A DNA stretch of 64,000 bases, taken from contig NZ_AOIB01000037.1 in NCBI RefSeq assembly GCF_000337675.1, positions 1 through 64,000 on the forward strand, written 5' to 3'. This document shows, one piece after another, positions 4,319 to 63,901 of this stretch. Both the position numbers and the translations under genes were made by a program. The notes below the pieces were generated by a model. The model saw nothing but the letters and a program-made list of their open reading frames with translations. It did not search any database and was not told where the DNA came from. The stretch is from Natronococcus amylolyticus DSM 10524 (GTDB lineage Archaea > Halobacteriota > Halobacteria > Halobacteriales > Natrialbaceae). Every line of letters starts with the position of its first letter. The stretch's first letter is position 1.

Positions 4319-4429
4319 CCTCGTCGTCCCCGTTTTTCGCGTCGATGAACCGTCTCCCGCTCGAGCCGGAAGAGTCTCGGATTCGCACGAACACGTGCTT
4401 CTCTTTCGCGGGTAAGAAGGATATCCCGT
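4319..4429. other. Spacer between the zinc protein and the tRNA-Glu repeat units
   Basis: No gene seen. A run of five T at 4332-4336, 14 bases after the stop codon, could end the plus-strand transcript of the zinc protein. Confidence 0.35.
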
Positions 4430-4487
4430 CTGGGTTTGAACTACGCAAAACGCTCGCTCCGCTCGCGTTTCTCTCGTTCGAATCCAG
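4430..4487. repeat. Hairpin unit 1: degenerate tRNA-Glu T-arm copy with an inverted partner
   Basis: The left arm CTGGGTTTGAAC (4430-4441) is a near copy of the T-arm of tRNA-Glu in the same orientation; the right arm GTTCGAATCCAG (4476-4487) is the same motif inverted. Between them AAACGC (4448-4453) pairs with GCGTTT (4465-4470) around a loop tcgctccgctc. The unit can therefore fold as a nested hairpin. Confidence 0.7.
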
Positions 4488-4500
4488 GGCCACACTCTCG

Positions 4501-4590
4501 GCTCACGGAGTTGTTCGCCGAAAAGAGCTCCGTCTGGGATTTGAACCACGCGAACCGCTCGCTGTGCTCGCGGTTCTCTACTTCAAACCC
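4501..4590. repeat. Hairpin unit 2: 21-nt exact copy of the tRNA-Glu 3' end plus flank, with inverted partner
   Basis: Bases 4527-4547 are identical to 4633-4653, the 3' end of the tRNA-Glu gene. The preceding 4501-4526 also resembles the immediate tRNA flank at 4608-4632 (gctcacg, then gttgttcgc), so about 46 bp are directly repeated with 106-107 bp spacing. After the copy, GAACCGC (4552-4558) pairs with GCGGTTC (4570-4576), and TTCAAACCC (4582-4590) inverts the T-arm start. No other part of the tRNA is present. Confidence 0.75.
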
Positions 4591-4598
4591 AACATACA

Positions 4599-4634
4599 GC
4601 ATTTACCGCTCACGAGTTGTTCGCAGCAAAATGC
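4599..4634 (-). repeat. Hairpin at the 3' end of tRNA-Glu, candidate processing or termination structure
   Basis: GCATTT (4599-4604) pairs with AAATGC (4629-4634), enclosing ccgctcacgagttgttcgcagc. The last bases overlap the tRNA 3' terminus. The inner loop resembles the hairpin next to tRNA-Pro at 28480-28511. Confidence 0.55.
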
Positions 4635-4706
4635 TCCGTCTGGGATTTGAACCCAGGTCATCGGCTCGAAAGGCCGAAATGATTGGCCGGACTACACCAA
4701 CGGAGC
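4632..4706 (-). tRNA. tRNA-Glu (anticodon TTC)
   Basis: A 75-nt cloverleaf on the minus strand. The acceptor GCTCCGT pairs with ACGGAGC, with A as discriminator base. The anticodon arm is TCGGC-CTTTCGA-GCCGA, giving anticodon TTC, and the T-arm is CTGGG-TTCAAAT-CCCAG. CCA is not encoded. No intron is seen. Confidence 0.95.
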
Positions 4707-27688: not shown

Positions 27689-28137
27689 CGTCGAAACGCC
27701 GGGTCGGGGTGGTGGTCAGCGGGTGGTGGTCGGCAGGTGGTGGTGTGTCATCGGTAGCTCTTCCCGGCATCGTTCGTTGCTCGCGACGAGCGTATTGAAC
27801 CGGGCGATCGTCCGCTCGAGTTACCGATCGTTTATCGGAATTATCGTGACTTTCTCCACGCCATCCCGAACCCGTTTGGATCTCACTTTCTTCGTCCGGT
27901 CTGCGAACGGTCGGGTCGGCGATCCTGCCACTATCCGCGTCGATCACCGAATCGGCCGCACGCTCGAGACGACACGCCGACCTCGGCTGCTCTCCGCGTT
28001 CAGTACGAGGATACGAGCGCGTTCTGGACGGTATTCTCGTCAGAATCCCACTGCCGACGCGTTCAACGCGGGTATTACCGTGGTTGATGATCCCTCGAGT
28101 CGACCTCCCCGGTGAAATACGCCGGCACTCGACTTCT
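27689..28137. other. Gene-poor region with a 14-bp minisatellite
   Basis: No convincing coding sequence. At 27708-27748 a G-rich unit of about 14 bp (ggtggtggtcagcg) occurs three times with small changes. The rest shows no structure I can name. Confidence 0.4.
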
Positions 28138-28203
28138 GCGGCTCACGTTTTTGCTCGCGTCAAAAGAGAGAGTACGGGGACTCGCTACGCTCGCCCTCGT
28201 ATC

Positions 28204-28261
28204 CCCACGTTTGCTCCGAAAACAGTGGGACAACGGTCGCAGCGGAGCTGCTCCCTGTTTT
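28204..28261. repeat. Echo unit near tRNA-Pro: TGGGAC plus hairpin
   Basis: TGGGAC at 28226 matches the start of the (reverse-complemented) tRNA-Pro 3' end. AAAACA (28219-28224) pairs with TGTTTT (28256-28261), GGGA with TCCC, and GCAGC (28239) with GCTGC (28247), leaving the loop gga. Confidence 0.55.
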
Positions 28262-28263
28262 CA

Positions 28264-28311
28264 TTTTCACGCTGCGAAAAGTGGGACCTCGGTCGCAGCA
28301 AAGCTGCTCCC
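28264..28311. repeat. Echo unit near tRNA-Pro: TGGGACC plus hairpin
   Basis: TGGGACC at 28282-28288 is followed by cggtcGCAGCaaaGCTGCTCCC; the core (GGTCGCAGC, three bases, GCTGCTCCC) is the same as in the previous unit, so the two are tandem relatives about 56 bp apart. Confidence 0.55.
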
Positions 28312-28377
28312 TGCTCCCATTTCCACTCCTCACGTCACAACGGTCGCTCCGCTCCCTCTTTCGTTACGTCGTGAAAA

Positions 28378-28467
28378 TGGGACCGCCGAGAATTGAACAG
28401 ATGCAAGACGGTCCAGCTCGCTTCCGTTGGTCGCTCGCTGGCTGCGACTTGCGTGCTCAATTCTCGG
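28378..28467. repeat. Echo unit near tRNA-Pro: 21-nt exact copy of the tRNA 3' end with inverted partner
   Basis: Bases 28378-28398 are identical to 28513-28533, the 3' end of the tRNA-Pro gene. CAATTCTCGG at 28458-28467 is the inverted form of part of it, and GCAAG/CTTGC and CCAGC/GCTGG pairs lie between, so the whole unit can fold on itself. Confidence 0.7.
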
Positions 28468-28479
28468 CTCTTTCGATAG

Positions 28480-28511
28480 TTCTGCCGCTCACGTTTTTGT
28501 TCGCGGCAGAA
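28480..28511 (-). repeat. Hairpin immediately 3' of tRNA-Pro
   Basis: TTCTGCCGC (28480-28488) pairs perfectly with GCGGCAGAA (28503-28511) around tcacgtttttgttc. It starts one base after the mature 3' end in tRNA sense, so it may serve termination or 3' processing. A T-run is present only on the plus strand. Confidence 0.6.
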
Positions 28512-28512
28512 A

Positions 28513-28583
28513 TGGGACCGCCGAGAATTGAACTCGGGTCCTACGGACCCCATCCGCAGAGGATACCACTACCCCACGGTCCC
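28513..28583 (-). tRNA. tRNA-Pro (anticodon GGG)
   Basis: A 71-nt cloverleaf on the minus strand. The acceptor GGGACCG pairs with CGGTCCC, discriminator A. The anticodon arm is TGCGG-ATGGGGT-CCGTA, giving GGG, and the T-arm is CCGAG-TTCAATT-CTCGG. The 5' part GTGGGGTAG is typical of archaeal proline tRNAs. CCA is not encoded. Confidence 0.93.
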
Positions 28584-63028: not shown

Positions 63029-63901
63029 TCACTCTCTGAGAGTGAGGGATGCGAGCGTGGCGAACAGAGCCTCTTCCGTTCGCACCACGTCGCTTCCCTG
63101 GTCCGGAACCGTATTCAGCCAGAGGTCGAACCCCGGATCGATGGGTTCGACTCCGTCACCGTCGACGCCGTCCCAGTTGGACAGCGCGTCGACGGCCTCC
63201 TCGTCCATTCCGAGGATGTCCGGCAGCCCTCTCTCGGGTGCCCCGAAGACGACGGTCATCCCGTCGCGCTCGCGGCGTCCGGCCAGCGTCCCCAGCCGCC
63301 CGACGGTGAGTTCTGCACCGAATCGGGAGGCTGCGATGCGGACGCCGGCGTCCTCACGGCCGAGTGCTGCCTGGAGGTCCGTCCGCTCGACGTCGAGCCC
63401 CGGAAGGGGCTCGTCCTCGAGTTTCGCCCGGACCGGTCGTCGCGAAGAGATCCTGACGGTCACGCGCTCCCCCTCCTCGAGCTCCATACCGGGAGGCACG
63501 TTGAGGGAGATCGGGTGTTGCAAGCCGCAATTGACCCGCACGCGTTGATCAGGTCCGACCTCGGTCACGATTCCTTGTCTTGACGACCCCGAACCGTTCG
63601 ATTCGGAGCCGGTCTGTGACACGGCGCGGAGCGGGGGCAGGATGCCCGCGTACTCGAGTTCGTCGCGCATCCCCCAGGCCTCGTTTCGGAGGTAGGGGGG
63701 CGTCGTCGCGTACCGCAAGACGGTGTCGACGAACTCGCCGCCGAATCGCCCGCGTTCGCCCTCCCGATCGGGGAAGACGACGAGCCGATCCGCCCGGAAC
63801 ACGGTCGCCGCGCGGGCGACGTATCCGAGCTTGCGAGTTGCCTCGCGTTTGTCCTCGGCTTCGCGGGTGAGCGACGACGGCACGAGCACGCTAACGGTCA
63901 T
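63029..63901 (-). CDS. SPOUT-superfamily RNA methyltransferase (putative uridine N3 type)
   Basis: 290 residues from the ATG at 63901. MTVSVLVPSSLTREAEDKRE starts the fold; KLGYVARAATVFRADRLVVF, GGEFVDTVLRYATTPPYLRN and RERDGMTVVFGAPERGLPDI form the alpha/beta-knot SAM site. An OB-like insertion with SLNVPPGMELEEGERVTVRI lies in the middle. This family (Methyltrn_RNA_3) precedes rpl3 in many archaea and is thought to modify rRNA or tRNA. First gene of the operon; an in-frame ATG at 63952 would lie at the TATA box and is rejected. Confidence 0.9.
   Translation of the reverse strand: MTVSVLVPSSLTREAEDKREATRKLGYVARAATVFRADRLVVFPDREGERGRFGGEFVDTVLRYATTPPYLRNEAWGMRDELEYAGILPPLRAVSQTGSESNGSGSSRQGIVTEVGPDQRVRVNCGLQHPISLNVPPGMELEEGERVTVRISSRRPVRAKLEDEPLPGLDVERTDLQAALGREDAGVRIAASRFGAELTVGRLGTLAGRRERDGMTVVFGAPERGLPDILGMDEEAVDALSNWDGVDGDGVEPIDPGFDLWLNTVPDQGSDVVRTEEALFATLASLTLRE

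Follow-up and report, generated by a model that had tools for sequence, protein, structure and literature searches.

What accounts for repeated, progressively less perfect copies of a tRNA 3′ end in the DNA behind the tRNA gene itself? The question is raised by a locus in the window analysed here, a stretch of 64,000 nucleotides from Natronococcus amylolyticus DSM 10524, in which tRNA-Pro(GGG) (28513..28583, minus strand; ARAGORN and an Rfam tRNA match) anchors such an array. A preliminary description had picked out the hexamer TGGGAC at 28226, 28282, 28378 and 28513, where all four occurrences were found. As evidence by itself the hexamer fails, with 38 copies in the window versus 33.8 ± 5.8 expected. 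Since it lies at chance level, the evidence rests on the long tRNA copy and on the anatomy of the units. Read along the minus strand, which carries every feature of the array, tRNA-Pro is followed by unit 1, unit 2, unit 3 and a remnant hairpin.

Unit 1 (28378..28512) is a 135-bp unit of the full type, consisting of hairpin I, an arm B, hairpin II and an arm D. Hairpin I (28480..28512) is made up of a T-run, a stem, a GA/GA internal loop, a 2-bp mini-stem, a loop, a stem and an A-run. B (28455..28467; CCGAGAATTGAGC) copies the T-arm of tRNA-Pro in inverted orientation and pairs with D; the inverted CAATTCTCGG that had earlier been said to close the exact copy lies at about 28455-28468. Hairpin II (28403..28452) forms a head between B and D, and D (28378..28398) is an exact copy of tRNA-Pro nucleotides 53-73, which map to 28513-28533. 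The 21-nt identity originally reported for D in fact extends to 24 nt (28375-28398 = 28510-28533, AAATGGGACCGCCGAGAATTGAAC), with three further trailer bases (28375-28377) matching beside D.

The two outer units are of the short type. Unit 2 (28282..28377), which is kept behind tRNA-Pro in Natronococcus sp. A-GB1, comprises a T-run hairpin I (28320-28377), B (TGGGA, 28315-28319), hairpin II (28290-28314) and D (GGTCCCA, 28282-28288). Unit 3 (28226..28281) is eroded, with hairpin I at about 28262-28280, hairpin II at 28235-28255 and a D-like TGTCCCA at 28226-28232; A-GB1 has no extra unit of this kind. As proposed before, these outer copies are shorter and have a hairpin core in common: a 50-nt block of 82% identity (28221-28270 and 28277-28326) with the core GGTCGCAGC-3nt-GCTGCTCCC. 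Farther out, a leftover hairpin I (28134..28165) is 88% identical to 28480-28511 and is probably an older decayed unit. Folded with DNA parameters, unit 1 gives z = -4.5, and unit 3 stands weakly above shuffles (z = -1.6). The suggestion that copies decay with distance also holds, as the mean number of D mismatches per 21 nt rises outward, from 2.2 in first units to 4.0 in second and 5.0 in third units (p = 3.5e-5).

The window's other array lies behind tRNA-Glu(TTC) (4632..4706, minus strand; ARAGORN). Its unit 1 (4526..4631, minus strand) has hairpin I at 4602-4631, B at 4581-4592, hairpin II at 4552-4576 and D at 4526-4546, and unit 2 (4426..4525, minus strand) has B at 4476-4493, hairpin II at 4442-4473 and an eroded D at 4426-4441. 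ARAGORN called only tRNA-Pro and tRNA-Glu in the window, and no tRNA inside the units. The window also contains, at 63453-63552 on the minus strand, a match to the Rfam L4-Archaeoglobi ribosomal protein leader (RF03135; 72.8 bits versus a cut-off of 34.5).

Ninety-nine units align to a single grammar of T-run hairpin I, B, hairpin II and D. They measure roughly 55-150 bp and are gene-free; no integrase gene was found within them, and at this size they are too short for one. In hairpin I, a tandem G.A/A.G internal loop is usual, along with a mini-stem of 2 bp whose sequence varies between GC/GC and AC/GT. B is an inverted copy of tRNA nucleotides 54-65 and tracks the T-stem of its own tRNA, with a mean rank of 0.77 where chance gives 0.5; its tracking of the acceptor end is weaker (mean rank 0.67). 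Predicted pairing of B with D yields a long hairpin with hairpin II as its head. B and D are tRNA-specific, whereas hairpin II families are common to different tRNAs, the largest serving 11. At Ser(tga) and Val(gac) the heads differ between the Natronococcus genome of the window and A-GB1, with hairpin I and B kept. The description of two arrays at unrelated tRNAs stands, but their independence needs care, as hairpin families are common to the arrays of different tRNAs.

Several observations adjoin this anatomy. The tip motif GA-GC-NNN-GC-GA, with changes from GC/GC to AC/GT, recurs in both hairpins of most units (28480-28512 is an example), and GCGAAGC is an exceptionally stable DNA mini-hairpin. 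The D arms of tRNA-Lys and tRNA-Ala(cgc) units (e.g. L036, L117, L120) carry an extra T-loop base, GTTCA-N-AATC, in several species, as if this were a common old variant. A reading of B as an H/ACA or C/D guide was rejected, with no right-hand guide and no C/D boxes. A search for hairpin II heads away from tRNAs returned BLAST matches (L004-L008, L023) that belong to a different family of similar GC-rich palindromes. What these loci have (about position 1500) is a multi-copy palindromic repeat of ~200 bp in this genome, containing AGCGTAGATTTTTG and ACGTACCTTTTT, that is untied to tRNA genes and looks like a non-coding mobile element.

The limits of the tRNA copy are sharp. When 105 copies from four genomes are compared with their tRNAs, identity climbs from 0.13 at nucleotide 51 through 0.47 at 52 to 0.92 at 53, stays at 0.87-1.0 from 53 to 72, and is 0.79 at the discriminator (73), beyond which the background is T-rich. 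The copies were selected on nucleotides 53-73, a selection that does not force the sharp fall on the 5′ side. This fall at 53, together with that after 73, defines the copy as running from the start of the T-loop to the discriminator, with a T-rich stretch directly after D. Behind Pro, Arg(cct) and Arg(gcg), short units retain no more than the final 7-14 nt of the tRNA and all stop at the same point. Reverse transcription from tRNA was discarded by reasoning, since a stop at modified A58 would give a boundary at 58 and not 53.

For each of the 45 tRNAs called in the window's genome, copies of its final 22 nt were sought within 300 nt of the gene. With up to two mismatches, an own-end copy was found downstream of 19 of the 45 genes, one of which (tRNA-Asp) is a true tandem gene, versus none in 1884 swapped comparisons with the downstream regions of other tRNAs and none in dinucleotide shuffles. 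Three upstream matches are neighbouring true tRNA genes (Asp, Gly, Thr); units occur downstream only. Allowing up to four mismatches over 21 nt and leaving out tandem genes, at least one unit lies behind 26 of the 45 genes, a scope larger than the two arrays first described, and 15 of the 17 matches in this genome to the blind pattern described below fall within 900 nt behind tRNAs. Three other Natronococcus genomes gave the same picture. Each genome has about 20 tRNA genes with no unit, and there are differences between close relatives. The tRNA specificity of the copies is strong. That the arrays are chance resemblances in GC-rich, palindrome-rich haloarchaeal DNA would fit the hexamer taken alone, but the swapped and shuffled controls, the latter of the kind proposed with the preliminary description, and the nearly empty reversed-pattern control described below rule it out for practical purposes; the claim of non-chance arrays at two unrelated tRNAs survives them.

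Distribution beyond the genus was followed with a blind pattern, TTTGAA-N(26-56)-GTTCAAATC, in which the T-loop is the only tRNA knowledge used. It matched 363 of 392 sampled Halobacteria genomes and 82 of 86 genera; the reversed pattern gave two matches in all. About 27 of 30 Halobacteria matches fetched with flanks adjoin a tRNA downstream (one counted by eye, its tRNA end having been misplaced), and D in these is usually the exact 3′ end of that tRNA. Other classes of the phylum gave 0-3 matches per genome versus 0-2 for the control, and those listed are not unit-like. Units behind tRNA-Pro also occur in Haloferax, Halogranum, Halegenticoccus and Halopiger, with D fitting each genus's own tRNA. 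The SRP and RNase P RNA genes of nine genomes had no 3′-end copy downstream (best 7-9 mismatches of 21; a few loci with a short right flank, gene ends approximate), which speaks against a feature of all stable RNA genes. At three loci (L065, L167, L170) another conserved, non-unit sequence directly follows tRNA-Pro and runs into an apparent small zinc-ribbon reading frame; it is probably an ordinary integrated element. The 828-kb Natronorubrum bangense plasmid NZ_CP031306.1 (L136) carries a second truB/cbf5-like gene and tRNA-Pro(GGG), both also present on the chromosome (L133).

A comparison of strains, which had been proposed as a check on the array, revealed presence and absence precise to the unit. 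At the tRNA-Pro locus, A-GB1, 98% identical over the adjacent 400 bp, is missing exactly the 135 bp of unit 1 in a single block, such that its tRNA-Pro joins the sequence that follows D in the window; of the two short units, it has just one. In A-GB7, a short unit precedes the full unit. Unit-precise differences were found at Pro(ggg), Thr(tgt), Lys(ttt), Val(tac), Phe, Tyr, Glu(ttc) and Ser(cga), with a comparable case at Met. They lie mostly at the tRNA-proximal end, although deletion between the tRNA and D would look alike. Unit order is permuted at Pro(ggg), the Ser(gga) units are reversed in genome G002, and behind the two tRNA-Gly(gcc) copies the units are arranged differently across the genus. 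Tandem duplicate units were found at Val(gac) in G002, Gly(gcc) in G006 and Lys(ctt) in the window's genome. For most events we infer the direction of change, gain or loss; unit 1 of Pro(ggg) was probably lost in A-GB1, which is more parsimonious than gain in the window's genome because other Natronococcus have it. In A-GB1, the additional Val(tac) unit combines Val-specific arms with hairpin parts similar to those found near Arg(tct) in that genome (L025, L104, L219), making it a candidate for recent transfer between tRNAs.

Mobile DNA of archaea and bacteria classically docks at tRNA 3′ ends, the known users being kilobase elements with their own integrase. Our leading explanation, which we hold tentatively and at slightly less than an even chance, is that the units are gene-free cassettes exchanged at the repeated tRNA 3′ end, most likely by a putative trans-acting, T-loop-directed tyrosine recombinase. 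Each cassette would be anchored to one tRNA gene, with the tRNA 3′ end as its left edge and, on its right, a D that repeats nucleotides 53-73, or only the last 7-14 in short units. Because D repeats the tRNA end, gain or removal of a unit would always leave the tRNA intact. Recombination at the repeated sequence would exchange units and, since these are tiny and gene-free, any recombinase must work in trans. In the cell, single-stranded DNA of a unit would fold as a hairpin, with B and D paired and hairpin II as a variable head, presenting the site; by analogy, this hairpin may be a folded site as in integrons. New or exchanged units would adjoin the tRNA, and older copies would be pushed outward and decay. 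The T-loop boundary, the fragment displaced downstream and the unit-precise differences are as recombination at a T-loop subsite predicts. Against the cassette model, the units carry no integrase gene, the 7-14 nt of the short units mean that the crossover is not always in the T-loop, and ordinary recombination between direct repeats can produce both tandem duplicates and tRNA-D deletions. An integrase alone, moreover, gives no account of how B acquires the sequence of each tRNA. A broader proposal addresses both arms, namely an undescribed class-wide system of Halobacteria that installs hairpin cassettes and writes the tRNA 3′ end into D (direct) and B (inverted), with interchangeable heads, by templated and possibly single-strand-DNA recombination unlike that of integrons, integrases or transposons. 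We regard this as rather unlikely.

The strongest rival dispenses with a dedicated enzyme: slippage or template switching would copy the tRNA 3′ end as D and B, and recombination between homologous sequences, the 21-bp repeats and the common hairpins, would duplicate, delete and reshuffle the units. The tandem identical units at Val(gac), Gly(gcc) and Lys(ctt) are what it expects, as are direct and inverted copies of one template; the loss at Pro(ggg) in A-GB1 resembles recombination between the tRNA and D, and order changes can arise by duplication and deletion. Random slippage does not, however, predict that D starts at nucleotide 53 across dozens of unrelated tRNAs, nor are one grammar and the same hairpin families across a class, or the absence of copies at SRP and RNase P RNA genes, expected from it. 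This enzyme-free route seems to us possible, if on the improbable side.

That the units function instead as RNA within the tRNA trailer, serving as a back-up terminator, processing signal or small RNA in which B-D pairing shields tRNA folding from the spare end, would fit their constant position downstream on the tRNA strand, the T-rich stretch after D, the strong regular folds and the class-wide conservation. Strong variation between strains and the roughly 20 genes per genome without a unit count against it. Stem mismatches likewise give no sign of selection on a transcribed RNA strand (G:T versus A:C 57:47, p = 0.38), although the ratio is 50:33, tilted to G:T, in hairpin II taken separately, and 7:14 in hairpin I. 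Where D differs from the tRNA, B is tRNA-like in 39 cases, D-like in 8 and neither in 8, partly an alignment effect of the 1-nt D insertion in Lys and Ala units; as B mostly still matches the tRNA where D has drifted, B-D compensation is weak. We consider a functional RNA improbable. Another reading, in which the units are worn attachment-site remnants left at these tRNAs by ordinary integrative elements or proviruses of kilobase size, is disfavoured, and we give it very little probability. The tRNA fragments do resemble displaced element ends, and at several tRNA-Pro loci elsewhere the tRNA is followed immediately by DNA other than a unit, as described above. Similar size and one anatomy at most tRNAs nevertheless cannot be random leftovers, the hairpins and B arms are unaccounted for, and no unit-like match appeared among the at least 121 viral-contig matches listed or was found in phages or plasmids.

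Across a whole archaeal class, many tRNAs of a genome are followed by gene-free cassettes of ~100 bp, and these turn over in exact units between closely related strains. If the recombination is site-specific, this would be a miniature integrative system testable in tractable haloarchaea; if not, it would be a striking case of host-gene-templated repeats. Either way, the units are markers of strain history. They are also an annotation trap, yielding spurious reading frames and 'tRNA fragments' and being dropped by island finders for their length.

Among known systems, the T-loop subsite is a named integration subsite of tRNA genes for genomic islands (Islander, PMC4383910). Like the tRNA-targeted elements catalogued there, the units feature a same-orientation 3′ tRNA fragment displaced downstream with the tRNA intact, an identity block from the T-loop to the 3′ end (in full-type units; short units start later) and possible tandem arrays. 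Unlike them, they are about 55-150 bp, lack an integrase or any other gene, and stand behind many tRNAs of one genome with an inverted T-arm copy and hairpins. Islander drops candidates under 2 kb (PMC4383910), a length floor that makes the units invisible to it. With integron cassette arrays and their attC hairpins, the units share an array layout and a predicted folded site with a variable head per unit. Most differences between strains lie towards the anchor, a picture that tRNA-D deletion would give as well as integron-like turnover. The units differ in having no reading frame and a tRNA gene as anchor. The integron site core GTTRRRY / RYYYAAC was not found either, D starting GTTCAAAT or GTTCGAAT with C at the fourth position. 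In CRISPR-like or casposon-type arrays, a target copy is likewise repeated between inserts and the oldest copies lie farthest from the anchor, but the inserts of the units are common hairpins rather than unique spacers, and the repeat is a host tRNA end.

Haloarchaea also provide closer neighbours in size and origin. The tRNA-like elements of Haloferax volcanii are tRNase Z substrates. These elements, mentioned in PMC4946936, are likewise tRNA-derived sequence outside tRNA genes, but they fold like tRNA, whereas the units have nucleotides 53-73 only. The small mobile repeats (SMRs, about 110 bp), MITEs and PATEs of Haloquadratum walsbyi are short, transposase-free, palindromic and variable between strains (PMC3119063), as are the units; they are dispersed or aimed at other mobile elements, whereas the units are tied to tRNA 3′ ends with arms copying that tRNA. 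The terminal inverted repeats and dispersed insertion of MITEs and SMRs were not found in the units, in which the B/D pair does not bound the unit. No published description of these arrays was found in the open-access literature, and an earlier one in subscription journals, which lie outside that scope, is possible. As each known family fails at least one of the features tested, the units are filed in none of them, and they work most like a miniature tRNA-targeted integrative element.
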